From the IMG/VR virus record IMGVR_UViG_3300010389_000150, positions 1 to 22,963 of that record: a DNA stretch of 22,963 nt; one strand, given 5' to 3'. The stretch is from a virus. Under the pieces are notes generated by a model. It made no database searches. It was not told the origin of the DNA and was given only the letters and a program-made list of their open reading frames with translations. Position numbers and translations under genes: made by a program. Below, one piece after another: positions 1 to 21,634 of the stretch. How positions within the stretch are numbered: the stretch's first letter is position 1; each line of letters begins with the position of its first letter.

Positions 1-45
1 ACACGTAAGGAGTCGTCGGCAGCGTCAGATGTGTATAAGAGACAG
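1..45. other. Illumina Nextera adapter (sequencing artefact)
   Basis: Bases 13-45 are identical to the Nextera Read-1 transposase adapter, including the 19-bp mosaic end that finishes in AGACAG. Bases 5-12 read GTAAGGAG, which is the i5 index sold as S505/N505, and bases 1-4 (ACAC) are the end of the P5 oligonucleotide. The order P5, index, Read-1 adapter is exactly that of a library molecule. These bases are therefore not phage DNA, and genuine sequence begins at base 46. Any gene reading into this stretch is artificially ended by it. Confidence 0.98.
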
Positions 46-3000
46 GAATTCAAGATTTTTAATTCTAGTTTCTAAACCAGAAATATCTTGCATTCTATAT
101 CTTTTGTGATCTATTATAGAAACAGAAGCATCTCTCAAAGAACAAAGATACGGAGGTAGAACAATTCTAGCTATTTCTAATGCACCAGAAACTTCATCTG
201 GAATTTGTGGCAATTCTGATGGAACTCCCTGTTTTGTCAAAATTATCGGTGTTCTAACATATGATTCTGAAATTTTTTGATTGTTATTTTGCGGTGATAG
301 ATATATTCTGTCAATTCTTCCGAGATAGAATGAATAGTTGCAAACTATTGATTCATCTGATGCCAAAACATCAAGGGCAGAATTTTGATCTCCATCAAAG
401 GATCTACCATAAAATTCAAATGGTGAACGAGTAGCAGAATTTGGATCATACTGATCAACTATTGGTCTAGTATCAATAATATCTGAAGTTCTATTCGAAT
501 TTACAGATTGTAAATCACAGTAATCAAATTGATTATAAGAATCTGCAACAGTAATATCTCCAGTATCTGATGCTGGAATATAAGCAGATTCGAAATATAC
601 TTTTAGTTTTCTTGTTGGAGAAGATACATTTTGCTTTCTAATAAGTCGAGAATAATCTAAAATGGTGCTTCTTTGCCCATTATCTACAGTAAAGTTGGAT
701 TTAATATCATTTGATCCTGCGGTGATTGTGTTAATAACTGCAGTCACATTTGAATCCTTAAATTTAATACTTTCACCTTCAATAAATGACAGTTGATTCA
801 AACTAACATAATTTATAGAAAGTGAAGATGGTTTTTCAAGGCAAATGGCAACATTTCCACTTTGTTCACCTACAATCTCTTCACCAATCACTATTTCAGA
901 TGTTGTTGCTGAAGTAGATGAAATATTTTGAAGAATAATAGTTGGTGGTGTTGGATCTTGAATTCCAGAAGATTCAAAAACAGCATATACCTTAGTAACT
1001 TCGGGAACATTCAGTGACAGTTCTTCATCCTGAACACGAGTTCCATACGCATAGTTTCCAAAAGTTAATCCATCATTATTAGTAGTGTTTCCTACTCCAC
1101 TATTAACTCCAGAATAACTATAAATCGACTTATCAATAACTGTAGAATTTACTCTATTTTTATTTTTTACTCTAGCCTTAACATTTATTTTTTGTAAGGT
1201 TGCAATTAGTCTTGCAGAACCATCTGACTGAAGACCATTGATTGTGAGTTCTCTTCCACCAGATGTGAATACAAACTGATCAGAACTTAAAGGTTCTGTT
1301 GTTCCATCATTTCTGATTAAAACATATCTCTCTTCATCAAATGATAAAAATACCTCATTTGAAAGTATTTCTGTAGGAGATACAATTAAAGAATTTGATG
1401 AGATTGTAACATCAAATTGTTTTCTGATAACCAGTTGAGAGTCTGAAAGATCTACCGAGGAAATATACTTCTTTCCTAATGGAGTATATAAAGTATTATC
1501 TGAAGAATTTAAGAATCTTGACTTTAAGATTGTAAAATCCGACGGAGTAATGTCTGTAGATGGTAAAGCACCTTCACAAATACCAGTTACTGTTGTAACA
1601 CCGGAAATTGTAACAATTTTTTCAGATACGGACTCAATCTTGGCAAATACTGAAGTAGTTAATCCTGCATTAGAGAAAGAAACTAAGTTTCCTACGGTTG
1701 CAACTCCAACAAAAGTAAAATCAGAAGAAGTTACTGTAGAAATTCCACCTGAGGAAGCAGTAATATTAACTGACCCAACATTTACTGATGAATATTGTCT
1801 AGTATCTGCTGTAAATGTTGATGCTGACCCCACAACACCATGTAAAGATTTTACATCTCCAGTTCCATATGAAGTAATTGCTGTTGCAACTCTATTATTT
1901 TCTATTCCATCAAAAATAAATTTCTCACCCTTTGCAAAAGTTCCACTGGTATTATACGCAGTAATGATTCCTGAGTTATTAACATCGTATCTCAAAAATC
2001 CTTTTGCACCACTTGCTTTTCCTTTAATAAAAGTTGGAGTTGTGAGTGTAATTGGTTCATTCAGAGAAATTTCTGTATAAGTTTGAATATCATATAGTGA
2101 AATTTCCCACTGGTTAGTATCTGGAAGAACAGAATCGTATAAACCAGATTCTAGAGCAAAATCATATACTCTAGCTACACCAATTTCTTTGCCCGATGCT
2201 GAGTATTGATCTGTTCCTACTCTAGAGTCTCTTAAACTTACAACATAAGTCGAGATTCCTACTGACGGAGATCCATAAACTCTGTTGAGTGAATAAGTTG
2301 CTCCCGTTGAATATATGATGCTTTGAGTATTAAGAGTTTTTGTTGTTCTTGGTTTTTCAAAATCTACTATGGAAGGACCCAAAGATTCTACTTCATAACC
2401 ATTAATATATGCTTTTCCTGGAGATAAAATGTAGCATCCTAAATCATCATTTGGAACTTGTGATTGGTATGTTAATTGATTTTCGTTAAAAATTCCATTG
2501 TTGCCCTTTTTATCATTTAGTGAGTTCTTTATTTCAACTTTAAAGGGAGTAACATAGTAATTTCCAGATTCATCAAAAGTTCTTCTTGCAAATTCTTCAG
2601 ATAAAATATTATATTCGGGATTTGATCGAAAATCAAAAATTATTCCATTGTTTATTTCAATAAGTTGTATAAAATTATTATCCTTTATATTGGTGAATCT
2701 GTCATCAGTGGGTTCAAAAATAGTATATAGGGGTATTTTTTTCAAAGTCGCAGTTATTTTTAACCTATCTGCACCAGGAGCTGCATAATTTGAAAATCCT
2801 TTTGCATTGTCAAAAAGAGAATCGTCAATATCGGAGTTAATAATTTCTTCCAATATTGAAAATCCAATTCTATATGATGGAAATGTGGATCCTGGTTCTA
2901 AAACTAAAATTTGTGATTCTACATTGACAAAAGTTCCTCTCAAGTAGTATACTCCTTCGGACAGTATTACAGCAGATCCAATTATAGAAGCTCTATCATT

Positions 3001-3522
3001 ATAAGTAGTTGCAAAAGATTGATTTGCTTGAATGGATGTAATTTCTGAAAATCCAGGAGAAACTGTTTGTTCAGATAAAAGATTTTCTGAATCATTGAAA
3101 GTTTCTTCACCATTCAATCCAGTATTTAAATAGTTTAAATATAATATTGTGTTTGTATTTTTATCTTGATTTTGTTTTAAAATATGTACAACTCTAGCTC
3201 TTAAACCGGAATTTTGTCCAATGATTACTTTTCCTAATAAATTATCAACATAAGAATCAACATTTACACCATTAAAAGTATTTTCTAAAATAACTCCAAA
3301 AAATGAACTATTATAGTTAATATTTCCCGGAATTACAACTGATCCTTCTTTGAAGACATGATTACCAAACTGCTCAATTTGATTTTGAAGAATAGACTGT
3401 AATCCTGTTAATTCACGAGCCTGAACAGGATACCCAGGTTTAAATAAAACCTTGTAATAATTTTTTGCGGGATCAAAATCGTCAAAGTATGGAGAGACGT
3501 TGAGGTTAGTTTCCTGTGGCAT
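46..3522 (-). CDS. DUF4815-family large baseplate/tail structural protein, 3' end missing
   Basis: This is a virion protein, probably of the baseplate periphery. Residues 11-66 (PYFDDFD...FKPG...QARELTGLQSILQNQ...FKEGSVV) match the start of the DUF4815 family, which is common in tail genes of marine T4-like phages. The rest is beta-rich and Ser/Thr/Asn-rich with no signal peptide or membrane segment, as expected for an extended fibre or wedge protein. It follows gp8 by 6 nt, the position of genes 9/10 in T4, so a gp10-like role is inferred from position only. About 1,159 real codons are present. The reading frame appears to end at base 25, but its last six residues (LSLIHI) and the stop codon are encoded by the Nextera adapter. 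The real C-terminus is missing and its length cannot be known from here. The start is the ATG at 3522; the ribosome site is weak (AAAGAATT). Confidence 0.9.
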
Positions 3523-3528
3523 AATTCT

Positions 3529-5082
3529 TTAGAATTGCAAAATGACTTTGATATCTTCTTTTTGATTTGATGATCTAGTAATCGAAGGTCTATTATCTAC
3601 ATAAATGATGTTTCCAGAATATTTTTTAACCTCTGGATTTGAAACACCTGATGTAAATGACTGACCCAAGTAGTATGTTCTATTATTTATTACGGTAGAT
3701 ATACCTGTGAAGGTTGTATCAATATCCAACGAATCCGTAGTTCCTACAATAGTTGTAGTTCCTCCAGTGCTGACTGTAGAACTAAATCTATTCAGATTAA
3801 ATCCATAAGTTGGATTTGTGTTAGCAGTCCCATCAGTATTAAATCCTGCAAGTGATCTATCTTGCCAATACTTTAAAACTCCAGTATTCTGATCATAAGA
3901 AATAACCCTACCAACAGCAGTAGATCCAACTCCAATAGTTTGAGTGATTCTACTATCTGCTGAGAAAATAGCACTGCTATATCCAATCCCAGTTAATTTT
4001 ATAGCACCAACTGCACTTGCTTTATCTGATGTAAGGAGTGAAGAAGAATCATATGCTTCTGGATTTTCGACAAGACCAACTCTTGCAATTTGGTTTCCTG
4101 TAATAAAATCGGGATTCTCTAAGTCATTTTCAATTCTAGAATAAACAATAACATTATAAGCACCCAACTCTCTATAAATATCTGCCCCATGTCCTCCTTG
4201 AGGTGGAATGATGACATTAAAAACTGGAGATGTGCTTCCCGTAGGAACATTGCCTGATGCAAGATCTACGGTTCCATAAGTATATCCAAATCCACCCTTT
4301 GAAATAACGACAGATTCAACTTTTGAATCATTATTAACAGTAATGGTACACTCAGCACCACTACCATCACCTTTAATAGGTACTCTCGTATAAGTTCTAT
4401 TTGCAGTTCCAAGACCAACACCACGATTTGTGATTGTTACGATCTTTAATTGACCACTAGTTGCCGCATTATTTCTGACTGATGCATTATCAGTGCTTGT
4501 TTCCCAATTCTTAGGAACAGGAATAAAGTTAATGGAATCGAACTTAATAATGTCACTTGGTTTGATGGTGTAAAGATACTTCCACAAATATCCATCTCCA
4601 CTAGTTCCAGCAGATCTTGGTTCTAAGTCAACAAAAGTTGGTTCGTCAAGTGATGGTCTTCCTTCTGGATTTTCTGGTGAAGTTCCATTTTGAAGACAGA
4701 TATAAACTCTATAATCACTGTTTACAACATAAAAGTTTGCAGAATATAAACTTGTAGCACCAGATGGTTTGGATGTGTTTGTTCTACTGATATCATGTCG
4801 ATACATGTCATAGGTTGTTCCTGATTGCCAAGTAACCTTACGAACAACTTGTTTTACATCATCCTCTCCAATCTTTTTGAGAGCAATCATTGTGTCCCAA
4901 TAATCATTCTCCTGATCAAAGTTGTCTTTTGGTGCAGGAGGAGTTACATCCCAAGTAGATGAATAATCAGTCGCATTGGGAAGACCTACAAAAGCATAAT
5001 AAGAATTTGAAGAAGAGGTTGCTACAGAAACAAAACTCTTAGCATTCAGTATTCTTAATTGATCAGTTATAATTGCAGACAT
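3529..5082 (-). CDS. 8: Baseplate wedge protein gp8, enlarged
   Basis: Homologue of T4 gp8, the wedge protein that forms a dimer and contacts gp7 and gp10. The C-terminal end (IIYVDNRPSI...DIKVILQF, about residues 492-517) aligns with the T4 end IYMENRPPI...EINILFTF. Residues 162-174 (GDGYLWKYLYTIK) match T4 GDGYVWEYLFEIP, followed by a matching Val-Pro segment near residue 188. The protein has 517 residues against 334 in T4. The extra length lies mostly in the middle (about residues 205-400) and includes a Gly-rich motif around GGFGY at 263-267, like the motifs recurring in the giant protein upstream. The start is the ATG at 5082. No clear Shine-Dalgarno is visible, but a late-promoter motif lies 17 nt upstream. 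It sits between the gp7-position gene and the DUF4815 gene, consistent with T4 order. Confidence 0.88.
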   Translation of the reverse strand: MSAIITDQLRILNAKSFVSVATSSSNSYYAFVGLPNATDYSSTWDVTPPAPKDNFDQENDYWDTMIALKKIGEDDVKQVVRKVTWQSGTTYDMYRHDISRTNTSKPSGATSLYSANFYVVNSDYRVYICLQNGTSPENPEGRPSLDEPTFVDLEPRSAGTSGDGYLWKYLYTIKPSDIIKFDSINFIPVPKNWETSTDNASVRNNAATSGQLKIVTITNRGVGLGTANRTYTRVPIKGDGSGAECTITVNNDSKVESVVISKGGFGYTYGTVDLASGNVPTGSTSPVFNVIIPPQGGHGADIYRELGAYNVIVYSRIENDLENPDFITGNQIARVGLVENPEAYDSSSLLTSDKASAVGAIKLTGIGYSSAIFSADSRITQTIGVGSTAVGRVISYDQNTGVLKYWQDRSLAGFNTDGTANTNPTYGFNLNRFSSTVSTGGTTTIVGTTDSLDIDTTFTGISTVINNRTYYLGQSFTSGVSNPEVKKYSGNIIYVDNRPSITRSSNQKEDIKVILQF

Positions 5083-5099: not shown

Positions 5100-5107
5100 T
5101 ATTTATG
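5100..5107 (-). promoter_or_regulatory. T4-type late promoter motif upstream of gp8
   Basis: The minus strand reads CATAAATA, which fits the late-promoter box of T4-like phages (T4 TATAAATA; NATAAATA in cyanomyoviruses). It overlaps the stop codon of the giant gene and lies 17 nt before the gp8 ATG, so transcripts would have a very short leader. No -35 element is needed for gp55/gp33-type late transcription. The call rests on motif and position only, and the motif can occur by chance in AT-rich DNA. Confidence 0.55.
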
Positions 5108-8100
5108 AAACGTAGTTACGGTATTTTAATGGATTATATCTTTGAACTGATGGTGAAGTTGAAACTCCGATCAAACCATTATTGTAAGATGTGAATGTTG
5201 TAGGAGTATTTCTAGTCAAATTATGTATTCTTCCCCAACTATATTCACCAAAGAAGGAACTATATCCAAGACCAGATAATCCATTGTAATCTGAAACACT
5301 AACGGTCACTTTGGCAACATATGTCAGTCCTATACCAAGAGCGTCAGTTTGTCCAATAGAGACTGAAGCAACCTCATAAACATTATCTATAAAAGTTGAT
5401 CCAATTCCTAAAGTTGACCCATTTTGATAGATTGAAGTCAATCCATTTCCAACATTAGAGTTATAGACTACAAAGTAATAACCGGTTTGAATTCCACTTA
5501 CTCCAGTTGTTGCAATACCAACACTATTAATATTCGTATCTCTAAGGAATGAATTTTCTGGAATAAAGAGATCAAAAACAATTCCTGTAGATGCAACTCC
5601 AACTGTAATGGTATTAATCCCCGTGATAATGCCAAAATCACCTTCATAAAGAACATCTTCAACAACTTCTCTCGATACATCTGGGGGAGAAATAAGAACA
5701 ACTGGAGGAGTTGTTGTTGTATATCCAGTGCCAGGATTAGAAACAGTTATTGAAGAAACTGTTCCACCAACAGATATTGTAGATGTTGCTGTTGCTCTCT
5801 GAGTTGTTCCAAGTCCAACAGGATTCTCAATGATTACCACTGGATTTGTAGAATATCCAACTCCACCACTCGAAATAACAATTGATGAAATAGTTCCAGC
5901 AACGGATACTATCGCAGTTGCCGCAGCAGCCACCAATTGATCTTGAGAGGTAATAATGATCTTTCTTTGTGGTTCTTCACTTGTTCCATCTTGTAGGTAT
6001 TCATCAGCACTATCAAAGAAAGTTTTCACATTCTCTACAAAAATCTGAGTTGATCCAATGCCTACACTTTGAATTAAGTTGGATGTTGGATTAATGAGTG
6101 GTTCATAAAGGATTCTATCTTTGCCAACCTCTTGACCGTTAATGATCTTATCTTCAGTTTGTCTACACCAGATAACTGGTCTCGCAAAAGTTTCATCTTG
6201 AGTCAGTCCAGGTCCAGGATATACATTAGTTTCAACAACATCAGTAGATACAACATCAGTAACCAATCTTCTATCTTCCTTGAATCTTTCAATATCACTA
6301 TTGATTCTTAAGGTATCACCTTCTTTTACAGTTTCCAATACGTCAATATTCAATGTATCTACATCACCTGTTCCTCTGTAGAAGATAATTTTAGAGGTAT
6401 CTCCAACTTTTGGTGCTTCATTAAATGTTATAATACTTCCACCATTGAAGATGTATGACACATCAGGAACTTGTAAAATATCATTGATAAAGATCAAAAG
6501 GTTTGCCTTCACTTCAACATTAGAACCTCTTCTAGATCTAATAGTTGTCTGTTGACCATTTATCTTAATTGGGAAAGTAGTTCTTTGTCCATCAAACAAT
6601 GAATCTACGGGATCAATAACTTGAAGATCTCCAATTGACCATCCAGTAAACTCATCGGTAAATGTCTTATCGATCGTAATTTGGAATTCCTCAAATGAAA
6701 CTGAAGTATCTGTAGGAATACCAGTTGTTCCTCCAATAGCAACTGTAAGAATTTCACCTTGACCATATCCATAACCAGTGTTTCTTATTTCAAAAGAAAT
6801 AACACTAGATCCTTGTCCTACTACAATATCTGCTACAGCAGCAGTTCCAAGACCACTGGATGTTGAACTATAAATCAGTGGGATCTCGGAATATGAAAGT
6901 GGATCGTCAAAAATGACAATAGGTGGATTTGATGTTGTATATCCAGCTCCTGGATTTGTGATTGCAACACCAGTTACATGACCGTCTACGACCGTTGCAA
7001 TACCAACATAAGTAATATTTGGAATACCGGTGCTTGAAGTCGCAACTCCAACATTAACTGTTTGTAATCCAGATCTATATCCAGATCCACTATTTCCAAT
7101 ACTAATAGAAGAAATCGTTCCTGCAATAGAAACTGTTGCGGTTGCACCAGCAGAAACCAATGGTTGATATCCAAGACCAGCAGTAGATCCAACAGAAACT
7201 ATGACACCACCAAGAGGAATACTACTAGTATTGATATCATAAGAAGAAGATGTTGCTGTTCCCGTGAATGTTATTGAAGTAATTCCAGAATTTTCGGAAA
7301 GATCATAGTCACCAACTACTTCTATCGCACCAACTCTTGCAGGTCCTTGGAAAATATCATTAATAAGAACTATGGCATTGCTTGTAGAGAATCCTGCAAT
7401 ATTTGAACCATTCGACTTTAATGTAAATGTATTAGTAGTTCCATCAAATCCCGAAGAAATATCATCAAAGATATAGTTGTAAGAATAAGGTTCAGAATCT
7501 CCATTTACAATTCCAGATCTAATGAAAGATCTTCCACTAAATGTAGAGTGAGTTTCTATTCCAACAAAATCTCTACTATCTGGTGGATTTGTAGTTGATC
7601 CTATTGGGGTTGGACCGTATGGTGCTGTCACAAAATTGATAGTATTATCGACAATATTAAAATCACCATTGACTTTTGTGATTAATGAATTAATTGCGTG
7701 AGTTGCAATTCCAGATCCCATCCATGCTCTTTGAACAAGAACAACATTTGTGGATCCAAATCCAACAGAGTTGACTCTCATAATTTCATCATCAATCTTA
7801 ATCAAATCTCCACCGAAGAAAGAAGTGATCCCAGAGAAAGTAACTCTTTCATCAACAATTGCAACTGCTTTAGCAGCAGTTGTAGTTACTGAAGTTGCAA
7901 CTATTGGAGATTGAATTAAATTATCAATTCCAATCAAAACTCTTGCATTTTGATTTGTTGATACAAATCTATGCGAAGTTCCAATTCCTACATGAGTAAT
8001 ATCTAAGATACTTGGTGGATTACGGAGAGCATCTGAAGCAGAAGCTGCAACTCTAACCTTTAAGTCGGTATCTTTAACGATATAAATTGACGATGGCAAC

Positions 8101-11100
8101 TTATCTGTTGAACCAACTCCACTAATTGTTGTTGTTGCAATTCCTATTGCTTGAGTAGTTCCAGCACCTGCGAATGAATAGATTACTTTTTCACCAGTTA
8201 CAAAGAAATGTTCGGGGATAGTGATAGTGTTATTAGTAATATCAACTATATCCGAGTCACTTCCATCAAAATATCTTTCAAAAATTGGTTTTTCTTTGTA
8301 AGTTAATCCAAATGATCTCTTAACATCAGTTTCTGATCCGGTATAGAATCCATATCCACTTCTTATGAATGCATTTGTAAAATCAATAGTTCTATCTGCA
8401 ACAGTTAAATCAACCAATCCTATTGGATTTTGATATACTCTTACCTCAACATCAATATCTACATTTGGTGTAAATGTTAGATCAACATCTCCACTTCCAG
8501 TTACAGTTGCTCCAATTGATCCTATTGATGAGTTTGTCTGAAGAATTCCAAATTCTGCAAAATATGCTTCACTATCATCATCTACAAGAACAATCTCGGA
8601 TACTTGATATTCGTTGTTAGTGAGATCCTCTACAGAAACAATGTAGTAAGATCCTTCATAAGTTGAACTATATGTTGCTATTGTGGTGATCCCTGGTGTT
8701 GGTGTGGATGAAATAGCAACATAACTGGATTCAATTCTAGCATCATTAAATATTTCGGTTCCAATTCCAACAGAAAGTGTGCTTGCAATAGATACTCTAA
8801 CAGAGTTTACATCAAATTGAACTGGTGTTGATGCATAAGGAATCAAATCTACATTGATATCAGACCCTGAGTAATATACGTGATATGTTCCGATTCCAAG
8901 TGAAGAGTATGAATCAATATTGGATGTGTTTAATTGTCCATAATCTTGTAAAAGAATATCAGTTCCATTATGGAGAATTGTAAGTTCATCAAATTCATGG
9001 TAAGAAGAATCTGTAGCACCAATTTGAACTAGAACCTTAGATGCTCTATATGTTGATGCTATACCAACCACTGTAGTAGCAGAGGATGTTCCTGAAGGAA
9101 TAGTTGTTGTTGCAGAACCAACAAAAACAGCATCTCCAAGATCTGTGGATCCTATTGAGGCAATTGTATCTCTAATATCAAATGAAATTGTACTTACATC
9201 ATAATCATTAATAGTAGATCTAGTTGGATAGAAGAGCAGATTTCCATCAAGTCCACTAATACTGAAATCAAATGATCCCATGTCATAATAAGTGTCTACT
9301 CCCCCATATTGGTTAATATAAGCAGTAGATCCATCATGAACGAGAGATACAATAGATACCTGTCTTTGTGCGGTAAATCTTCTATCTTTAATAAATGTCA
9401 GATATTTTACAGATCTTGATTCTAAGTTAAAAGTATTAACAATACTAAATTGTGTTGGTCTTGGGTTGCTATTAAATTCATCACTAATATCATCAATCAA
9501 TAGAACTCTATTTCCAACAGATTCGATATAATCTTGAAGAACACGAGATCCAAAAATAATTTCATCCGATCTAACATTTCCATCAACAATAAAGTTATTT
9601 TCAGTGACCAGATCAAAATCATATACACAGTTTAAATCGATTGAACGTGAAAGATCCGCAATTCCAGAAACATCTCCTAAGTTCTGTTCTGTACTAATTC
9701 CAGATATTATTGGAGTAGATTCTACTACCAAGTCACTGAATCTCTTGAATCCTGCAGTATGATTCAAGTTACTTACTGCATCATCCCAAGTTTCTATTGA
9801 AACCTGTGATTTTAAAGAATATGCAAAATATTGATAGTAATCATTGTCGTGAACTCTTTGGAACTGATTATCCAAGAATCCAGTTTCTCTTTGCCATCCT
9901 TTTACGACAGTTGATGCTGCTCCAACAACATAATTTGCAATTGATGTTGTTATAGTTTCAATAATTCCATTAGATGTTGATGTTCTACCAGTTATTGTAC
10001 TTCCAACAACAAACGTATCATTTGTAGAAACTTTCAGAGTTTCTTCAACTTCATTCCAATCAACAACAATTCCAGAAGATTCTCCAGAAGATACAATCTC
10101 CCCTTTATTGAATGTATTTTTCTCAAGAGTTATATCAAATATTGGGAAATATTTTTGCGGAATTATTCTACCAGCAGAATTTACCGGATCAAAGGTTCCT
10201 GGTATTTCTCCATTAGAGAGATAGTTTGTGATATTATAAGATACAGTAGCTCCAACACCTCCAATATTTGGATCAGTGTTTACAATAGTGAATAATGCAT
10301 AGTTATAGTTTGAAGAGTTATATCCTTTTCCAGTAGATCCAACTCCAACACTTACATTTTCAATGAGAATTTTATCCCCAATAACAAATGGGAAATCTGA
10401 AGCATTACTAAAACTGGATCCTAAGGTCACAACAACATCATTTGAGGATGATATATAACGAATTGAACTAATGCCAACACCATTAGTATTATTGACGGGT
10501 ATAATCGTTGGGGTTACATTATTAATTGATTTTGTATTTTTCAGAATAGTTACTGTTCTCGAATCCAAATCATATCTCAAATCAACATCAGATATAACGT
10601 TATCCGTAAGTCCGTCAAGAACGATTAAATCTGGAGCAATTGAATATCCTCTTCCAACAGAAGAAACTCCAATAGATCTAAAAGAAGATTGTGGATTAAG
10701 TTTAATAACATCTGGAAGTTTTGCTGTTGGTCTTACAGAATAGTCATTAGAATATCCAAATCCAATATCATCGATTGTTGTTTTTAGAACTTTTCCAATA
10801 CTATTAGTCAATACCTGTAAAACTTCTCCAGATCCTAAGTTAGAAGAAATATTTTCAATCTCAGGTATTGACTCTAAGTTGAGACCACCATAGTTTGTAC
10901 TAATGGATTCAATTTCTCCATAAGCATTTGTAGAATTTGTTATATAAGATAACTCAGAATCTGTTGTATCATAATTTAATTGTTCTGGAGTTTCAGATAC
11001 AAGATAAGTAAATGTATTTGAAGTAAGTGAAGAAACTGACTTATTTCCACTATAAATGCTTGGAACAATATTGACAGAATTGCCATCAACCACTTCATTA

Positions 11101-14100
11101 TCTACAATAACTTCTTCCTTTACCGAAGGAATTATATCTAAATTTGTAGGAGTAAGTTTGTAGTATAATTTTCTTGGAGTAGAATCATTTACTCTCAGAG
11201 CAACTGTTGCTGTTGTGTCAATTCCAACTCTTCCAGTTCTTACTACTTCAACATTATTAACGTTGGTAAATTCAAATGGATACCTAAATCTAGGATCACT
11301 GTAGAAGTCTAGATCAAATGCCGAGTATAAGATTCCACTGTTTGTAAATGAAAGTGTAGAACTTGATACATCAAAAACTAAAGTATTATTATTTGTAAGT
11401 TCTATTGCTGGATTTACTGGAGAAATAGAACCGTCCGATGATGACGTAATGTTTATTTCATTTCTCTCTATCCTTGAAGAATAGTAGTAACTATCCGATA
11501 ATTTGATAGTATTTTCATCTACAACAATAACATAGTAAATACTCTCATTCGACAAACCTCCAGATGGTGAGGTTGAGGTATAAATTACTTTTTGAGTAGT
11601 ATATAAACCATGATTTGGTATCGTTATAGTATTTCTTGCAGTATCAACTGCAGCCGATAAGAAATCTAATTTGTCAATAACAATTCTTCTATTATAATCA
11701 TTATAAGAAACCGAAATCTGAGTAGAAATTCCAGCATTGACATTCATAACAACATTATCACCCAACTGAAGTCCATGAGTGGATGCTGTAGAAACAGTTA
11801 CTTCATTCTTTGAAAGATTACCTGTTAAAATGCTTTCATAATTTGTGGTAAAACTGTGAATTTCTCCACTTCCAACACTAGTCAGATATAAAAGATCTGC
11901 AGCAGTTGATATTCCAGCATAATAACCAGTAGTTCCTAATCCAACACGATATGAACTAATTCCAATAAGATCGGAAGTTAATCTAGTTGCATAAACAACT
12001 GAATTTTCTGTAAGTTGATATGAGGAAATTCCATCAGTAGAAATGGATATTTGAGTTCCACCATTAGATGAGTAAATTAACTCATCACCAGACAATAATT
12101 GATGATCTGGCAGATATATCGATCTAGTTGGAATTGAAATTTGAGTAGCACCAACTCCAGGATTTGAGAATGTTAATGTTGTTGCAACACCAGGTCCAGC
12201 AGTAGTACCTATTCCTAAAGATTCTGTTGGGTTAAAGTAAAACTCTTTGTTTAAATTAAAATCATAGTTATTTTTTATATCCAAATCAAGATATAACTTT
12301 CTAGTAACTTCTGTTATAGCAATTCCGACAGAATAAGTTGTAATTCCTGATATTTCACCAACATTTCTAAGAACTCTTACTCTAGATGAATCTTCATCGA
12401 CATTAAGAATCTTTACTCTTTCATCTAATACCTGATAAATGTCATTTTCTCTAATGAAAGAATCCGAAAGATTGCCAATTACATTAAAGTAAGTAACAAG
12501 ACCAGTATAAGTGGTAGATCCAATCCCAGTAGATACAATTAAACTATTGATTCGATTTGATATGTTAGTAGTCTGTAAATCTTCAAAATCTGATGTAAAA
12601 GTTACAGTATCTCTATTATTGAAATAGTGTGGTGAAGTTGAGAATGCAACGTATCCATTAGAATCTGGATAAAACTCTAAGTTCGATAGGTTTGAAGATG
12701 CTACACTAACAGAACTTACGGTTTTTCCTTTAATAAAGGAAACACTGGCAGATGGTTTTTTGGAAGAAAGATCTACTTCTTTAAATACAACTCTATCGTT
12801 TACTTGATAAGAATCCCCACCTGTCAGTATTCCTACAGAACTTATAGTTCCTTTAGATACTGATTTTACACGAGAAACTTGTTCTCTTACATTATTTGGA
12901 TTATATAAGAAATCATATCCACTATTAGAATTTGTTATATTATAAGGTGTTGTATTTCTAATCCAATTAGTATTATTAATATTAATATCGGATTGATTTG
13001 ATGATTTTAAGAAATTGAATTCTTCTGGTTTCGATTTATAGGTGTTTCCAACAAAATATGGGAATACTGGAGATTTATAATTCTTAAAGACACCAATAGA
13101 ATCTACCTGTCCACCATTGATGGTTGTAAAGTATGCATAAACTCCATTGGGATACTCTGGAGTAACACAGAATCTGCCATTATGCTCATCGAGGTCTCCC
13201 TCCCCCACAAACTCATAATCTTCAACAAAGAATCCTGCAGGATATAAAGTAACACTTGGTCTATTTGGTTGAAGTTTTAACTGATAACCAGAGACCATGG
13301 ACCTAATGGATCCTCCAGTAATTGATGAATATCCATATGGACCATAAATTGGGTTTCCATCATAAGCCCATCCAATGATTGGTGAGTGTGCATTTGATGT
13401 TACTTCTTTTCCATTAATAACTTGTAAATCGGGTTGATAGAAAATGCGACCATTTCTATATCTTGTTCCCAGAACTGAAGATCTAAGTTTTCTTGGTGAG
13501 TATAAATGGAAATATTCCAATCCAAATCCGGAGAAACTATCTCCTAAAACACCATCATCGTCAGTGATTTGATTTGTTTGAACAAATCTTTCAAATAGGT
13601 TTACATTCCAAGATTTGATATTGCACTCAAATTTTGCAGATAATCCAGCAGCAGTTACTGCAATAGAAGTATCGGAATCGAGATAACCAGAACCACCAAA
13701 AACAACATTTACTGATGTTATTGTTCCATTAGAAATTATTGGAGTTAATAATGCTCCCGATCCACTTCCACTAACAGTTATATTTGGTGGAGAATTATAA
13801 TTACTTCCTGGATCATTAACAATAACATCTACAATCGATCCATTATTAATAATCGGAGTTAGTTGAGCACCACTTCCATTTAACAGTAAAAATTCTGGTT
13901 GTCTGTTGTAATTTAAAATGTCTGAAGATCCAAAAGAATCTCCACCATCTTGAACATGAACAGATTCAATACTTCCTCTAAAAATTGGTTGAAGAGTTGC
14001 ATTAAAATCTTGACCTGTTAGAGTAGAAACTCCAATAGTTCCAGAAACAGTAACGGTTATTGGTTCATAATTGAATATATGAACACCACTACCAGAACTA

Positions 14101-17099
14101 ATAAGATCTACATATTCTCTTGTAGTATAATTAATATTTTTTGGTTGAGTGGTAGAAGTACCAACTAAAGAAAGTTTAAAGTTATTTTCATCAACCTTCG
14201 TAATATAATAAGTTGCTGTTGATGCTAATCCTACTATTGAGATCTCTGTAAAGTCATAAGTTACTATTTCTCCACTTTGATATCCGTGATTTTCGATGTA
14301 AATTGTATTTGATGCAGTATTGATTCCAGATACACCAGAGGTTCTTTTCTTGTTTTCGTAGTTGTTTCCTGGTGAAATTACAGTTACTGAACCAATCTTT
14401 TTCTTTTTATTAATCGACTTAAATCTCTGAACACCATTACCAGTGTTAGCAACGGGAACAGTATTTACTCCCAAAATACTATCTGAGTAGGTACTGTGCA
14501 GTTTAACAGTCTTAGAGTCGATTACAGACACGAAATAGGAAGAATTAGTTGATAATCCCCCAACTACAGTTTGACCTTGTGGATCGTAGATTACCTGTTC
14601 ATAGTCTCTAAACTTATGGTCTTCAATGAATAAAATTTCATAAGTTGTCGCATTAACTCCACCAGATGTTGGACTAGCATTAAAGTTAACTAAGTGATCA
14701 AAAGATATTAGGTTTGCTTTTGCATCTGCTAAAGAACCATTTCCTCCAGAAATTTTAATTCTAGGTTCTTCTAGGTAATCAAATCCACCATCAATTACAT
14801 CTATTCTATCCAGAGTGCCTTTTACATTGCAATAAGCAGTAGCACCAGATCCAATAGAATCTGAAACTTGAAGAACTGGTGGATTGATTACATCATATCC
14901 AGATCCAGAAGAAGTGACCGAAATATTTTCTATGGGACCATAGAAAACACTATTATTTGATTTGTAGTTTAATACCTCAACGCCATTGACTAAAATTCCA
15001 GTAGATCCTGGTAAGGTTTGAAATACACTTTCATCATTAACTGGGGTTGATACTTTACGAATCAACTTCTGTGGTTCTAATTGTTTTGTTTCTCCTGAAT
15101 TTTCTAAAACAAAAGAAGAAAGTTCTAATTTGTTATTTGATACCGTCCCCGAAACTGAAACAACCTTATTTGCAAAAAGATTAGCCCTACTCTTTGCAAG
15201 TTGAATTGTGTTCTCATCAATTTTTCTTACAAAGTAAAAACCATCATCTATACCTAAGTTATTTCCTTCTCCACCAGATCTATAATAAACCGCATCACCA
15301 GTATAGAAAGGATGATTGGAAATTGCTAAACTTTGACCTACAAAAATTCCAGAAAAAGTTACTGATCTATCATTTACTGTTATCTTTTGATTCAAGTATG
15401 TTGGTAATGATGGCGCAGCAACATACAACGATCTATCATTATCAACATATACATTTTGAACATTAGTGGTATACTCATCAAGAGATGGATAATTGCTCGA
15501 ATCAAATCTCGATAATACTTTTCTAACATCAAATGTGTCACTTACATTTAAAGAACCTTGACCAGAAATAGTGATTGATTTCTCATTTCTATAGGAAATT
15601 ACTGTTCCAAAAACTTCAGTTCCAGGTCTTCCATAAGAAGGCAATATAGAAACTCTATCACCAATAACAAAAGAATGATTATCATAAAAATTTATTGCGT
15701 AAGAATTGTTAGAAGAATCTAATAATTCTACAGATTTTGTTACATAAGACGTTGCTACATTAAAAAACCAATTGTTGAATTTATACTCATTGATGTTATC
15801 TCCAAGAGTCTTTATTTTTATTGGATCCCCGGATGAAAATAAAGAATTTTGTTCTCTCAGTTGAATGTCGGATAGTACACCAGTTACCCTAAATCTTACA
15901 ACACTCTGAGAATCATCATATCCATATGCAAAAACATTTGATTTAATTTCAGTTCCACTAGGAATTTCTTGAGTGATTCCAGAACAATTTAAAAACTGAG
16001 TAAGAGTTTTATCTGTGTAAGTTATAATAATCTGAGATCCATTTTCTAAATCAACAGCAAGTTCTCCTGATTGTGGAAATCCTACAGTTGAGTCAACATC
16101 AAGAGTAGTAAAATTTGGAGAAAATCCACCTACACTAGAATCAGTATCTCTAATATCAGTGATTAATAGTGTTTTAGGATGAATGGTAAATTCACCAAAG
16201 ATAGTACCATCAACATCAATGTCTCTTTGATATCCAATGTCAAGACTAAGGACATAATAATCTTTTTCTGCTCTTTGAATTCTTTCTACCTGAGTTACAG
16301 TTCCTCTTGCTTTTGGTAGGAAAGAATTTTCATCTTGGTAAACAGTTCTGTTTACTAATTGATTAATGTCACCATCAATTGTTTCAACAACTAAATCTTT
16401 AGTTACTCTATATTGAGCATCTGATGGTTGTATCAAATAATCCTGAGGTCTAATAACAGTAACGTCTTGACCATAGAGAGCTCTGAATAAAATTTCAAAG
16501 GAACCTTCTGTTCCTTTTGAGGAATAAAAATCTACTGCCTGTTTTAAGAAAAGAGCATCGTTTAATCCACTGAAGATGGATCTATCTTCAAATCCAGGTG
16601 TAATCTGAGTCTTTAATTTTATAAAAAACTTTTGGAGAAAGAGAACGCTGAGATTCTTAACAGTAGAACCATTAGTATGTTCCTCTACTGAAGAATCTGA
16701 AAATATTAACTCATCAGGGTTATCTAAAGAAGTTACTCCACTGAATCCTCTGATGCATCCAGTGAAAGATGTTGAAGTTTTTCCAGTGTATGATACGATT
16801 TCAGAATCAATTAAAAGGAGACCATAAGAGTCTGGAAAACCTGCAGTAGATGCCACATTTAGTGTGGCATCAAAAAATGAAACACTTGTGGTAAGTGTTG
16901 TAGAATCAATTAAGTTCGATAAAGTGTCTACTTTTACATATTGATCTAAATTTGTTGCCAGGTCATATGCAGAACTCTGACTTTCAAGAGAAAGATAATA
17001 CTGTTTTAAAAACTCAGAAACTAAAGGAAATTCATCCTTTACAAACTCTGGAAGTTGATTTTCGACAATCGAACTGATTTTGATTCTTGTTTCTGCCAT
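5103..17099 (-). CDS. Giant (3,998-aa) baseplate structural protein in the gp7 position, with YHYH domain
   Basis: An intact 12-kb frame between gp6 (4-nt gap) and gp8, the place of gene 7 in T4. T4 gp7 has about 1,030 residues, so this protein is roughly four times larger, and equivalence to gp7 is inferred from synteny. The N-terminus (MAETRIKISS...) is followed near residues 85-125 by a small beta module with IDSEIVSYTG and CIRGFSG. Residues 1195-1325 form a YHYH domain, seen as GWAYDGNPIYGPYGY and later GDLDEHNGRF...PNGVYAYF. Two short motif families recur: a glycine type (GGxGYxxxPxVxI), in two clusters at 13.7-14.9 kb and 5.7-7.1 kb, and an NHG...tGd.ViY type. The composition is rich in Ser, Thr, Gly, Ile and Val with little cysteine, and there is no signal peptide or transmembrane segment, which suits a chain of beta domains around the baseplate. 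The start is the ATG at 17099, chosen from its spacing to gp6; the ribosome site is poor. Confidence 0.88.
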   Translation of the reverse strand: MAETRIKISSIVENQLPEFVKDEFPLVSEFLKQYYLSLESQSSAYDLATNLDQYVKVDTLSNLIDSTTLTTSVSFFDATLNVASTAGFPDSYGLLLIDSEIVSYTGKTSTSFTGCIRGFSGVTSLDNPDELIFSDSSVEEHTNGSTVKNLSVLFLQKFFIKLKTQITPGFEDRSIFSGLNDALFLKQAVDFYSSKGTEGSFEILFRALYGQDVTVIRPQDYLIQPSDAQYRVTKDLVVETIDGDINQLVNRTVYQDENSFLPKARGTVTQVERIQRAEKDYYVLSLDIGYQRDIDVDGTIFGEFTIHPKTLLITDIRDTDSSVGGFSPNFTTLDVDSTVGFPQSGELAVDLENGSQIIITYTDKTLTQFLNCSGITQEIPSGTEIKSNVFAYGYDDSQSVVRFRVTGVLSDIQLREQNSLFSSGDPIKIKTLGDNINEYKFNNWFFNVATSYVTKSVELLDSSNNSYAINFYDNHSFVIGDRVSILPSYGRPGTEVFGTVISYRNEKSITISGQGSLNVSDTFDVRKVLSRFDSSNYPSLDEYTTNVQNVYVDNDRSLYVAAPSLPTYLNQKITVNDRSVTFSGIFVGQSLAISNHPFYTGDAVYYRSGGEGNNLGIDDGFYFVRKIDENTIQLAKSRANLFANKVVSVSGTVSNNKLELSSFVLENSGETKQLEPQKLIRKVSTPVNDESVFQTLPGSTGILVNGVEVLNYKSNNSVFYGPIENISVTSSGSGYDVINPPVLQVSDSIGSGATAYCNVKGTLDRIDVIDGGFDYLEEPRIKISGGNGSLADAKANLISFDHLVNFNASPTSGGVNATTYEILFIEDHKFRDYEQVIYDPQGQTVVGGLSTNSSYFVSVIDSKTVKLHSTYSDSILGVNTVPVANTGNGVQRFKSINKKKKIGSVTVISPGNNYENKKRTSGVSGINTASNTIYIENHGYQSGEIVTYDFTEISIVGLASTATYYITKVDENNFKLSLVGTSTTQPKNINYTTREYVDLISSGSGVHIFNYEPITVTVSGTIGVSTLTGQDFNATLQPIFRGSIESVHVQDGGDSFGSSDILNYNRQPEFLLLNGSGAQLTPIINNGSIVDVIVNDPGSNYNSPPNITVSGSGSGALLTPIISNGTITSVNVVFGGSGYLDSDTSIAVTAAGLSAKFECNIKSWNVNLFERFVQTNQITDDDGVLGDSFSGFGLEYFHLYSPRKLRSSVLGTRYRNGRIFYQPDLQVINGKEVTSNAHSPIIGWAYDGNPIYGPYGYSSITGGSIRSMVSGYQLKLQPNRPSVTLYPAGFFVEDYEFVGEGDLDEHNGRFCVTPEYPNGVYAYFTTINGGQVDSIGVFKNYKSPVFPYFVGNTYKSKPEEFNFLKSSNQSDININNTNWIRNTTPYNITNSNSGYDFLYNPNNVREQVSRVKSVSKGTISSVGILTGGDSYQVNDRVVFKEVDLSSKKPSASVSFIKGKTVSSVSVASSNLSNLEFYPDSNGYVAFSTSPHYFNNRDTVTFTSDFEDLQTTNISNRINSLIVSTGIGSTTYTGLVTYFNVIGNLSDSFIRENDIYQVLDERVKILNVDEDSSRVRVLRNVGEISGITTYSVGIAITEVTRKLYLDLDIKNNYDFNLNKEFYFNPTESLGIGTTAGPGVATTLTFSNPGVGATQISIPTRSIYLPDHQLLSGDELIYSSNGGTQISISTDGISSYQLTENSVVYATRLTSDLIGISSYRVGLGTTGYYAGISTAADLLYLTSVGSGEIHSFTTNYESILTGNLSKNEVTVSTASTHGLQLGDNVVMNVNAGISTQISVSYNDYNRRIVIDKLDFLSAAVDTARNTITIPNHGLYTTQKVIYTSTSPSGGLSNESIYYVIVVDENTIKLSDSYYYSSRIERNEINITSSSDGSISPVNPAIELTNNNTLVFDVSSSTLSFTNSGILYSAFDLDFYSDPRFRYPFEFTNVNNVEVVRTGRVGIDTTATVALRVNDSTPRKLYYKLTPTNLDIIPSVKEEVIVDNEVVDGNSVNIVPSIYSGNKSVSSLTSNTFTYLVSETPEQLNYDTTDSELSYITNSTNAYGEIESISTNYGGLNLESIPEIENISSNLGSGEVLQVLTNSIGKVLKTTIDDIGFGYSNDYSVRPTAKLPDVIKLNPQSSFRSIGVSSVGRGYSIAPDLIVLDGLTDNVISDVDLRYDLDSRTVTILKNTKSINNVTPTIIPVNNTNGVGISSIRYISSSNDVVVTLGSSFSNASDFPFVIGDKILIENVSVGVGSTGKGYNSSNYNYALFTIVNTDPNIGGVGATVSYNITNYLSNGEIPGTFDPVNSAGRIIPQKYFPIFDITLEKNTFNKGEIVSSGESSGIVVDWNEVEETLKVSTNDTFVVGSTITGRTSTSNGIIETITTSIANYVVGAASTVVKGWQRETGFLDNQFQRVHDNDYYQYFAYSLKSQVSIETWDDAVSNLNHTAGFKRFSDLVVESTPIISGISTEQNLGDVSGIADLSRSIDLNCVYDFDLVTENNFIVDGNVRSDEIIFGSRVLQDYIESVGNRVLLIDDISDEFNSNPRPTQFSIVNTFNLESRSVKYLTFIKDRRFTAQRQVSIVSLVHDGSTAYINQYGGVDTYYDMGSFDFSISGLDGNLLFYPTRSTINDYDVSTISFDIRDTIASIGSTDLGDAVFVGSATTTIPSGTSSATTVVGIASTYRASKVLVQIGATDSSYHEFDELTILHNGTDILLQDYGQLNTSNIDSYSSLGIGTYHVYYSGSDINVDLIPYASTPVQFDVNSVRVSIASTLSVGIGTEIFNDARIESSYVAISSTPTPGITTIATYSSTYEGSYYIVSVEDLTNNEYQVSEIVLVDDDSEAYFAEFGILQTNSSIGSIGATVTGSGDVDLTFTPNVDIDVEVRVYQNPIGLVDLTVADRTIDFTNAFIRSGYGFYTGSETDVKRSFGLTYKEKPIFERYFDGSDSDIVDITNNTITIPEHFFVTGEKVIYSFAGAGTTQAIGIATTTISGVGSTDKLPSSIYIVKDTDLKVRVAASASDALRNPPSILDITHVGIGTSHRFVSTNQNARVLIGIDNLIQSPIVATSVTTTAAKAVAIVDERVTFSGITSFFGGDLIKIDDEIMRVNSVGFGSTNVVLVQRAWMGSGIATHAINSLITKVNGDFNIVDNTINFVTAPYGPTPIGSTTNPPDSRDFVGIETHSTFSGRSFIRSGIVNGDSEPYSYNYIFDDISSGFDGTTNTFTLKSNGSNIAGFSTSNAIVLINDIFQGPARVGAIEVVGDYDLSENSGITSITFTGTATSSSYDINTSSIPLGGVIVSVGSTAGLGYQPLVSAGATATVSIAGTISSISIGNSGSGYRSGLQTVNVGVATSSTGIPNITYVGIATVVDGHVTGVAITNPGAGYTTSNPPIVIFDDPLSYSEIPLIYSSTSSGLGTAAVADIVVGQGSSVISFEIRNTGYGYGQGEILTVAIGGTTGIPTDTSVSFEEFQITIDKTFTDEFTGWSIGDLQVIDPVDSLFDGQRTTFPIKINGQQTTIRSRRGSNVEVKANLLIFINDILQVPDVSYIFNGGSIITFNEAPKVGDTSKIIFYRGTGDVDTLNIDVLETVKEGDTLRINSDIERFKEDRRLVTDVVSTDVVETNVYPGPGLTQDETFARPVIWCRQTEDKIINGQEVGKDRILYEPLINPTSNLIQSVGIGSTQIFVENVKTFFDSADEYLQDGTSEEPQRKIIITSQDQLVAAAATAIVSVAGTISSIVISSGGVGYSTNPVVIIENPVGLGTTQRATATSTISVGGTVSSITVSNPGTGYTTTTPPVVLISPPDVSREVVEDVLYEGDFGIITGINTITVGVASTGIVFDLFIPENSFLRDTNINSVGIATTGVSGIQTGYYFVVYNSNVGNGLTSIYQNGSTLGIGSTFIDNVYEVASVSIGQTDALGIGLTYVAKVTVSVSDYNGLSGLGYSSFFGEYSWGRIHNLTRNTPTTFTSYNNGLIGVSTSPSVQRYNPLKYRNYVS

Positions 17100-17103
17100 T
17101 TTG

Positions 17104-19014
17104 TTATATTCTTACGAGGTCTCCGTTGGAATAACTTGAAGTTACCGTGTATGTTGATCCAGAGATATCAGAACCTGAAGATATTTCATCTGATACCATA
17201 TTTAACACACTAGAAGATGGGTCTAATTGGAGATATAGATCCTGTAATCCAATTACATCATTTGATCTAGGAGATACTGATATCTCAATAATAGATTCTC
17301 CTCCACTATTCTTTGTAGTGGAAGTTATGTTTACAGGATTTAAAATAATTTCTCCTCGATCATAATCAATTCTTCCAACATTATTTCTTACAACTGTTGG
17401 AGTATTTGTAGATGTTATTGTAAAGAAAAATATGGATCCCGTTTTTCCATCAGCATTTGGAATATCTGACATATAAACTGTTCCATTTACTGAACTCACA
17501 GTAAAACCAGAAGACTTAATATTATATCCACTCATCTTTCCGATGTGGAAAGCATTACCATAACAAATCTCATAATCTGCAAATTGGTTCAACGCAGGTT
17601 TCATATCTCTTCTCATAACAACTTTTGTTATGTTTGAAGTGATTGCACTGTTGCTATCGTCAATTAACTTTAAGAATTTACTATATTTAAATCTAGCACC
17701 ATATCTATTCAATTCCGAAGAGTCTGCGTATGAGTTTATATTACTTGATACGATAGTTTTCAAGTAATCTGCACTTGGTGCTGCATTTGTATTGTAATAT
17801 ACCGAAGAATCGAACTCAATGTAAAGATATTTCAGATCCAATATCTCAGGTACAATTCCAGCAACACTATATTTTCTTAGACTATTAACAATATTTTCTT
17901 TTATCTGACTCGAAACAAAAGTTCCGTTAATGGGTTTGATTGATATATAAACCTTTCCAAATCTAGGAGGGTTCAAATCTTCTCCACCAAATACAGAAAC
18001 AGATTCTGTCTCTGGATAAATGGTTGGAATAATAGTTTCATAATCAGTTGCAGTTACAGCTCTATTCTGAGAAGCATATATTCTGGGAGCATATTTTTTG
18101 ATCGAATCTACAGACTCTATATTTTGCCCACCTCTAGATTGTGTGTTGGTGGTTAAAAGAGAGATGCCTGTAGTAACTACACGATTATTGTTATCAACAA
18201 TTCTTCCATTAAATGTAAAGGATGAAACTCCGTTTGCATCTTCACCTGTAGTTGTTACATATGATACTTCAACATAGTTTTGATCATCAAGTTTAACTCC
18301 AAATACACCATCGCCAAAAATAAGTTCATATCTCTGATCTTCTATTTCTTGAATAAAAAATACTCTAGAAGTTGAATCGACATCAAGTAAACTAGTAGAT
18401 AATGTAAACTTACGAGTTACACTACTTGATTGTGTATTTCTAACTAAAACAGAAATTGATTTAGTATCAATATCAGAGTTGTCTAAAATATATTTTTGAT
18501 TTGGATCATTCGAGTTTACAGTAAATGTTTTAACTAAGAACGTTCCCTCATATACATTAACATTTTCGAATAATGCAATTCCATTAATAACTGGTTTAGT
18601 AACATCTTCTGGAATTGTAAATGTATAACTTTGATTTCCGAAAGTACTTGTGGATGTACAAACAGTTCCTTTCTTAAGTGTCAAAGTTAATGGTCTTGTA
18701 GTAAACCCAGTGGTATCTACAAAAAAAGATATATTTGCTGTCGCCGAAGTTTTGGAACGAGGAACATATCCAATGTTCCTTGCCAAAGAAACAACGTTTT
18801 CTCTTAAGGTAGCACTATCAATAAACACCTCATTGGTGATCATATTCGCATTATATGATGTAATGTAGGTGTTATATGCTAAAACATCAATAAGAGTTGA
18901 TAGAGTCGATCCCTCAAAATCGTAGTCAGTAAAATTCGAGTTCGATCTAAGGTAATCCTTAATCGAAGTCTTGATTTGATCGAAGTCTAGGTTAGTGAAA
19001 TTTACTAATGCCAT
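17104..19014 (-). CDS. 6: Baseplate wedge protein gp6
   Basis: Homologue of T4 gp6, a baseplate J-like protein. Two copies per wedge join with gp7 and form the inner ring that ties the wedges to the hub. The clearest match is at residues 30-49, DYDFEGSTLSTLIDVLAYNT, against T4 DYDFEGSRLNVLCDLLAYNT. Downstream of it, NVVSLARNIGYVPRSK aligns with the T4 stretch ending GYLPTSK. A later segment (YVEVSYVTTTGEDANG) matches T4 VIEYISTNGADANG, and the conserved ATDYETIIP motif is also present (T4 ATDYDTFV). The length of 636 residues is close to T4's 660. Its ATG overlaps the gp25 stop by one base (TAATG), so translation is probably coupled. No Shine-Dalgarno is visible. Confidence 0.93.
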   Translation of the reverse strand: MALVNFTNLDFDQIKTSIKDYLRSNSNFTDYDFEGSTLSTLIDVLAYNTYITSYNANMITNEVFIDSATLRENVVSLARNIGYVPRSKTSATANISFFVDTTGFTTRPLTLTLKKGTVCTSTSTFGNQSYTFTIPEDVTKPVINGIALFENVNVYEGTFLVKTFTVNSNDPNQKYILDNSDIDTKSISVLVRNTQSSSVTRKFTLSTSLLDVDSTSRVFFIQEIEDQRYELIFGDGVFGVKLDDQNYVEVSYVTTTGEDANGVSSFTFNGRIVDNNNRVVTTGISLLTTNTQSRGGQNIESVDSIKKYAPRIYASQNRAVTATDYETIIPTIYPETESVSVFGGEDLNPPRFGKVYISIKPINGTFVSSQIKENIVNSLRKYSVAGIVPEILDLKYLYIEFDSSVYYNTNAAPSADYLKTIVSSNINSYADSSELNRYGARFKYSKFLKLIDDSNSAITSNITKVVMRRDMKPALNQFADYEICYGNAFHIGKMSGYNIKSSGFTVSSVNGTVYMSDIPNADGKTGSIFFFTITSTNTPTVVRNNVGRIDYDRGEIILNPVNITSTTKNSGGESIIEISVSPRSNDVIGLQDLYLQLDPSSSVLNMVSDEISSGSDISGSTYTVTSSYSNGDLVRI

Positions 19015-19415
19015 TATCGTGTTGGCTGTAATGCAAATGATAACTGTTGCGGTAATACATCAATCCCAACAATGTAATAATTAATTGTCACATTAAATTC
19101 ATTGTTTTCATAATTTGGAGAAACATCGACAGAAATTAAATCAACTCTTGGTTCGTAATTATTGATAGTATTGGTGATTTCATCTTTAATCACAGATGCA
19201 GAAATCTCATCCATATTCTCAAAAAGTGTTTGAGACACTCTAGAACCAAGATTTTCGTTAAAAAATCTTTCTCCTGGGAGAGTAAAGATGAGATTTCTGA
19301 CCGAACGAGCAATAGCGGTCTCATTTTTAATAGAAATCAAGTCATTATTCAGGGGATTAACCTGAAATGACATGCTTATATCTTTGAATCCTCTACTTAG
19401 CCGTTCTACAGGCAT
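19014..19415 (-). CDS. 25: Baseplate wedge protein gp25
   Basis: Homologue of T4 gp25, the small wedge protein of the GPW/gp25 family that links the wedge core to the sheath and helps trigger sheath contraction. The length (133 residues) is almost equal to T4 gp25 (132). Typical family features are the N-terminal GFKDISMSF, the DLISIKNETAIARSVRNLIF helix region, LPGERFFNENLGS at 46-58, the FENMDE segment, and the C-terminal EPRVDLISVDV with beta strands ending in a short tail. Older annotations may call it a lysozyme because of the family name; no lysozyme activity is implied. The start is the ATG at 19415, with no good Shine-Dalgarno. A late-promoter motif lies 21 nt upstream. It overlaps gp6 by one base. 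Confidence 0.94.
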   Translation of the reverse strand: MPVERLSRGFKDISMSFQVNPLNNDLISIKNETAIARSVRNLIFTLPGERFFNENLGSRVSQTLFENMDEISASVIKDEITNTINNYEPRVDLISVDVSPNYENNEFNVTINYYIVGIDVLPQQLSFALQPTR

Positions 19416-20480: not shown

Positions 20481-20626
20481 TAGATTTCCTCCAGTTCGAG
20501 TTGTTCAATATCAAAGTCCTCATCAGTGTAATACTTAGAGGAGAGTTCGTCAAGAACCTCAGTACATTCTTCATGACTGAGGTTCTGATATATCTTACGT
20601 CCTTTGTATAAGATATTAAAAGCCAT
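20480..20626 (-). CDS. Small acidic conserved phage protein (48 aa)
   Basis: A 48-residue protein, MAFNILYKGRKIYQNLSHEE followed by an acidic tail ending in EQLELEEI. A short basic, aromatic N-terminus precedes an acidic helix. It resembles small conserved cyanophage proteins of unknown function. The ATG at 20626 overlaps the glycosyltransferase stop (TAATG) with no ribosome site of its own, so it is probably translated by coupling. The end of the gene contains the ribosome site of the next gene. Confidence 0.78.
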   Translation of the reverse strand: MAFNILYKGRKIYQNLSHEECTEVLDELSSKYYTDEDFDIEQLELEEI

Positions 20627-21446: not shown

Positions 21447-21634
21447 TAAGAACCTTCCAAAGAGATTTTCCGGTTCACCATAAGTTCCTCATAAGATAAA
21501 TCAGAGATTTCATAATCAGTATGCATAATACCTACCATGTTTCTTAAGGTTTTCCAAGTAACCTCAAACTCTTCTTCTTTGATCGAATGAAATAAACAAC
21601 GATCCTTTGCATAGATGTGATAAATCTTTTCCAT
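21443..21634 (-). CDS. Small conserved phage protein (63 aa)
   Basis: A 63-residue protein, MEKIYHIYAKDRCLFHSIKE followed by EEFEVTWKTLRNMVGIM and DLSYEEL. It looks like a compact alpha/beta protein, a type seen in cyanomyoviruses without known function. The ATG at 21634 is preferred over the GTG one codon earlier because it overlaps the cupin stop as TGATG and has GGGAGG about 8 nt before it. The end of the gene carries the -35 box of the next promoter. Confidence 0.78.
   Translation of the reverse strand: MEKIYHIYAKDRCLFHSIKEEEFEVTWKTLRNMVGIMHTDYEISDLSYEELMVNRKISLEGSY

Follow-up and report, generated by a model that had tools for sequence, protein, structure and literature searches.

A probable gp7 orthologue with a split baseplate wedge core in a T4-like cyanophage

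Introduction

A 12.0-kb gene located between those of the baseplate wedge proteins gp6 and gp8 raises two questions: does it encode gp7, the wedge initiator, and, if so, where in the protein do the residues that T4 gp7 lacks lie? The window analyzed here is the whole of a 22,963-base stretch (IMG/VR virus record IMGVR_UViG_3300010389_000150, positions 1 to 22,963), which is a genome fragment and not a complete genome. The open reading frame (5103..17099, minus strand) starts with ATG and runs over 3,998 codons without internal stop. The single unbroken frame occupying more than half of the window that had been noticed in an earlier examination (hereafter the original prediction) is therefore real. 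Its product is a gp7-type baseplate wedge protein of 3,998 aa (about 432 kDa, predicted pI of 4.5) assigned to PHROG 2885. The original prediction also proposed that most of its mass forms extra peripheral domains, perhaps a second receptor-contact layer on the baseplate.

Results

The location between gp6 and gp8 was confirmed by PHROG and Pfam searches. The gene is flanked on one side by gp6 (17104..19014, minus strand; PHROG 219, Pfam Gp6 domains, T4-type gp6 structures with E-values down to 1.5e-42), beyond which lies gp25 (19014..19415, minus strand; PHROG 261, E = 2e-54), and on the other side by gp8 (3529..5082, minus strand; PHROG 438, E = 1e-166; Pfam Phage-Gp8). The latter is followed by a gene encoding a VrlC-like DUF4815 protein (25..3522, minus strand; PF16075, E = 2e-34; HTVC008M VrlC, E = 3e-78) that is truncated by the contig end and whose stop codon is adapter-derived (bases 25-45). 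An Illumina Nextera read-1 adapter indeed occupies positions 13-45, within the first 45 bases of the contig; several unrelated phage records also carry this adapter sequence close to their ends. The order gp25-gp6-gp7-gp8-VrlC/DUF4815 is common to the window, S-SM2, P-SSM2 and HTVC008M. The VrlC/DUF4815 protein is also related in sequence to a solved DUF4815 protein of 1,152 aa (PDB 9euf, E = 4e-13).

The assignment to gp7 does not depend on gene position alone, since the N-terminal part of the protein is homologous to the wedge core of T4 gp7. This N-terminal wedge core (residues ~1-310; 16170..17099, minus strand) was delimited by alignments. In a low-confidence model, it is predicted to be helical over residues ~1-62, to carry a small beta insertion at ~66-142 and to continue with helices and a trifurcation-like block at 143-283. 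Block 1 (residues ~179-283, FYSSKGTEGSFEILFRALYGQDV; 16251..16565, minus strand) matches residues 725-809 of T4 gp7. A comparison by hhalign of 13 N-terminal sequences with four T4-type gp7s aligned residues 184-282 with T4 727-809 (E = 6.8e-11, probability 97). The profile search of the N-terminus proposed in the original prediction also gave a positive answer: a profile of residues 1-300 matched gene 7 alone in the whole T4 genome (E = 6.1e-9), and an hmmsearch with the N-terminal profile over all PDB chains ranked T4 gp7 first (E = 1.1e-6). Furthermore, residues 1-300 directly matched gp7 of Aeromonas (E = 4e-6) and Enterobacter phages in tblastn searches, and PF23786 was detected on block 1 (E = 1.8e-4), below the curated cut-off of this family.

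Other domains of T4 gp7 were not recognized by sequence. Neither domain V nor domain VI (PF21427 and PF21456) had any Pfam match in the window protein, block 1 being aligned into the first half of T4 domain V. The helical domain (PF21428, T4 643-689) had no Pfam match and an HMM of the first 60 residues was negative, whereas the low-confidence model predicts N-terminal helices. PF21427 and PF21456 are models that describe close relatives of T4. Domains V and VI were treated as accessory and, judged from these comparisons, the protein is a divergent gp7 orthologue and not a T4-type gp7 in every domain. A phmmer search of the whole protein against the PDB gave no credible match, NCBIfam gave none, and an AlphaFold model of residues 1-480 built with 12 sequences was not usable (pLDDT 43). 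The published tail structure of cyanophage A-1(L) was considered as a parallel and rejected because it is of a different type.

The second half of the gp7 core, block 2 (residues ~2407-2480, DNDYYQYFAYSLKS...NHTAGFKRF; 9660..9881, minus strand), is located far downstream. An HMM built from cyanophage sequences only detected it in the compact gp7 of Ochrobactrum phage vB_OspM_OC (OC; residues 226-277, E = 2.5e-18) and in that of HTVC008M (residues 759-811, E = 1.9e-14). Its match to T4 gp7 (~861-892, more precisely 864-888) is weak (E = 1.3e-4), the best of 800 shuffles scoring below T4, and a direct hhalign comparison of block 2 with T4 is also weak (E = 0.0017, probability 15%). The order from block 1 to block 2 is identical in every protein compared, and the two blocks are adjacent in PF23786 (positions 154-230 and 233-278 of the 284-position model). 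The spacing of the two blocks, measured between their motifs FYxxKG (block 1) and HxxG (block 2), is ~145-150 residues in T4, 172 in OC and ~590 in HTVC008M, compared to ~2,256 in the window protein; it is ~2,230-2,310 across a further 12 giant homologues and reaches ~2,790 in S-RIM2 and Syn19 (block 1 of HTVC008M, S-RIM2 and Syn19 being located from BLAST alignments). Since T4 and the compact gp7s have the blocks near each other, whereas they lie far apart here, the protein appears to have grown by insertion inside the wedge core. Taken together, these results indicate that the gene is very probably the orthologue of T4 gene 7 in a T4-like cyanophage, with a split-core layout in which ~2,100 residues separate the two blocks.

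The two blocks and the gene position are shared with T4 gp7 (1,032 aa; PDB 5hx2, 5iv5 and 5iv7), in which ~640 residues precede the core, ~50 residues occupy the place of the ~2,100 of the window protein, and neither a YHYH domain nor a counterpart of the C-terminal extension is found. The compact gp7s of HTVC008M (1,016 aa) and OC (631 aa) carry both blocks and their core begins at the N-terminus; the insertion is shorter in the former and nearly absent in the latter, and neither matched the YHYH block. The recognizable core amounts to ~10% of the window protein. In agreement with the original prediction, ~90% of the mass lies outside this core, but this mass is mostly an internal insertion to which a C-terminal extension is added.

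The internal insertion (residues ~311-2406; 9882..16169, minus strand), defined by the block spacing, holds five B repeats (HMM repeats at residues 590-635, 818-867, 926-977, 1654-1714 and 1818-1868, minus strand), GxGY repeats and the YHYH domain. Small repeat A is present in a first copy inside the helical core (residues 77-123; 16731..16871, minus strand; E = 5e-25) and in a second one at residues 331-376 (15972..16109, minus strand; E = 1e-21). The C-terminal extension (residues 2481-3998, ~1,500 residues beyond block 2; 5103..9659, minus strand) includes three tandem copies of the D repeat of ~100 residues (2606-2708, 2734-2837 and 2857-2917; 8349..9284, minus strand; E = 5e-41, 5e-40 and 3e-13). 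In total, iterated HMMs with shuffled controls found two A, six B, seven GxGY and three tandem D repeats. The last ~1,000 residues matched 101 phage records in tblastn searches, and no Pfam family matched the last ~400.

Such a composition could suggest that only the N-terminal core is gp7 and that the remainder is a fused, polyprotein-like tail fibre or adhesin, possibly cleaved during assembly. The repeated small domains, the YHYH domain and the spread of lengths (631-6,483 aa) would suit an add-on module, and the 175-aa S-PM2 neighbour S-PM2d082 bears one of the repeat domains. However, block 2 at ~2407-2480 implies that residues 311-2406 are not a simple terminal fusion, and the block spacing is stable, so that we consider this explanation unlikely.

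Another explanation stems from a report that T4 gp7 is absent from both cyanomyophages and pelagimyophages and that VrlC takes its place (PMC7029224), which would make the giant protein an unrelated virion protein occupying the locus; Sullivan et al. (PMC3037559) likewise considered gp7 too divergent to cluster. This is very unlikely, because both gp7 core blocks are found in the gp7-position protein, these genomes encode VrlC separately, in a gene of its own that follows gp8, and HTVC008M VrlC has no match to the core. DUF4815 was not found in the giant gp7 but in the separate gene 25-3522. Moreover, no separate gp7 was found elsewhere in the ten complete relatives searched with the core profile (the window's own record being a fragment): the full core matches only in the gp7-position gene, one per genome, and the remaining matches essentially cover the small repeat A region only. 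At the sequence level, marine T4-like phages thus appear to have a gp7, which contradicts the statement of PMC7029224.

Annotations at this locus are heterogeneous. In HTVC008M, the gp7 gene (L030:8001-11051) is annotated "head closure Hc2", whereas the downstream genes gp059, gp062 and gp063 are labelled "baseplate wedge initiator". The first two of these were considered as second gp7s and rejected, as they show no BLAST relation and the genome-wide core profile matches gp055 only. In OC, the gp6-position gene (L032:3881-5764) is annotated "T4-like gp7", as is its neighbour.

The frame itself is not due to chance, since the longest open run averaged 94 codons (maximum 143) when the bases of this DNA were shuffled 50 times, and the GC content by codon position (0.43/0.41/0.17) is a coding signature; it is also open across 3,400-3,700 codons in the relatives, over the sequence compared. 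An assembly or frame artefact fusing several genes, which the adapter at one record end and an interruption of the frame around residue 1,200 in one relative (environmental contig L004, 13575-13645) might have suggested, is already refuted by the sequence comparison, the identical single frame being found in many independent contigs as well as in isolate genomes. At the position of the L004 break, the frame is open in the other relatives examined.

The protein belongs to a large family. The 4,179-position profile of PHROG 2885, named "baseplate wedge subunit", matches residues 1-3369 of 3998 (E = 0), tblastn with the first 1,000 residues retrieved 469 phage records, nearly all from cyanophages and many named baseplate wedge initiator, and IMG/VR contains at least 592 related stretches. 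GenBank names the homologues of S-SM2 (4,156 aa) and P-SSM2 (5,195 aa) "gp7, baseplate wedge initiator". Proteins encoded at the gp7 locus range from 631 to 6,483 aa: 631 aa in OC, 1,016 in HTVC008M and 1,032 in T4 among non-cyanophages, and, among cyanophages, 3,048 in S-PM2, 3,515 in S-RSM4, 4,067 in both Bellamy (gene 111) and SynMITS9220M01 (gene 083), 4,156 in S-SM2, 4,454 in P-HM2, 5,195 in P-SSM2, 6,378 in S-RIM2 and 6,483 in Syn19. While the ratio of about four to T4 gp7 given in the original prediction is arithmetically correct (3,998 versus 1,032 aa), the unusual size that it implied is not, as 3,998 aa falls in the lower half of the range of annotated cyanophage homologues (3,048-6,483 aa). 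By sequence, the giant protein is an ordinary-sized further member of a large and already annotated family, new only as one more member.

Its closest counterparts differ from it only by sequence divergence. The gp7 of S-SM2 (GU071095) has the same locus and length class and can be aligned over the entire length, with 44% identity across residues 1-3997; Bellamy gene 111 and SynMITS9220M01 gene 083 share locus and length class and, like PHROG 2885, are already annotated as wedge initiator or wedge subunit. The gp7s of P-SSM2, P-HM2, S-RSM4, Syn19 and S-RIM2 share the core, the YHYH domain and the locus but differ in length. In those of Syn19 and S-RIM2, the N-terminal core contains ~500 extra residues and GxGY repeats are far more numerous than in the window protein. 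These ~500 residues are inserted near the site of the 77-residue small domain of the window protein.

The YHYH-family domain (residues ~1231-1328; 13116..13409, minus strand) was recognized by PF14240 (E = 2e-26 and 8e-30) and forms a conserved block in almost every giant homologue examined. This domain has been predicted to be a metal-dependent (zinc) hydrolase with three conserved histidines and an aspartate (PMC7824862). In the window protein, the motif that gave the domain its name is replaced by YAYF and, among 53 sequences of the block, His1238 is the only invariant histidine, His1198 being nearly invariant, and Asp 1247 and Asp 1304 are invariant. A zinc-hydrolase role is therefore not supported by the sequences for the giant-gp7 version. 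The YAYF form also occurs in many Bacteroidota proteins, in a scan that favoured similar sequences. An AlphaFold model of the block built with 53 sequences (pLDDT 71) had no match in the PDB (best E = 4), nor did the sequence of the block, whereas in a viral library the model matched phage and giant-virus proteins, several of them named YHYH-domain proteins. In a control hhalign comparison, the block was unrelated to T4 gp7 (E = 0.09). Two contigs filed as Planctomycetaceae and Euryarchaeota MAGs (L119 and L120, respectively) match the phage YHYH block with 46-47% identity; the L119 stretch, an uninterrupted reading frame of 1,460 aa, resembles phage DNA that was assigned to a MAG during binning.

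Discussion

The protein is ordinary for marine T4-like phages, and what deserves to be retained is only its split-core architecture: the giant gp7 would have arisen through an insertion that separates two parts of the wedge core and not solely by addition at its ends. By analogy with the T4 baseplate structure, the core would pack with two gp6 chains in a (gp6)2-gp7 wedge unit. As the insertion begins and ends in the core, its domains would form a large side lobe rather than a free-end appendage, the block order suggesting that the chain leaves the wedge and re-enters it.

Less certainly, this lobe and the C-terminal extension, with their small repeated domains and the YHYH domain, may enlarge the baseplate rim. 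They could take over some of the work of the N-terminal domains of T4 gp7 and perhaps that of further peripheral proteins of T4. They may also serve as a surface for attachment, host contact or fibre docking, and we propose their host-contact role only tentatively. In the same way, the second receptor-contact layer of the original prediction may possibly correspond to a laterally projecting second baseplate tier, formed by the ~2,100-residue lobe of the split-core gp7 and carrying host-contact (YHYH) domains. YHYH has been grouped with carbohydrate-binding and host-recognition domains of cyanomyophages and pelagimyophages (PMC7029224), which fits a contact role, without being a proof. The S-PM2 gp7-position gene, S-PM2d081, carried an early mutation in evolution experiments in which several early mutations were pre-existing alleles (PMC9910659); for this reason, the mutation is weak evidence for host contact.

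The presence of such proteins in virions is suggested by a relative of the window phage, S-SM1: T4-GC 969 is listed as a virion structural protein from mass spectrometry of this phage (PMC3037559), and the gp7-position protein of Syn19 bears this cluster label. A gp7-position homologue is thus probably a virion component in S-SM1. The map of core and non-core regions would guide docking by structural biologists and point to a possible host-contact surface. Since annotations at the gp7 locus are unreliable, gp7 is better recognized by profile searches for both blocks than by the names given to its product.

Two other genes of the window deserve mention. A cupin of the mannose-6-phosphate isomerase C-terminal family (21634-21972; PF01050, E = 6e-28) lies alongside the baseplate genes. 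A 255-aa ORF without Pfam match (20626-21393) shares ~77-80% DNA identity with hypothetical genes of Bellamy, S-SCSM1 and S-CAM9, which is the top-scoring similarity of the window at the DNA level.
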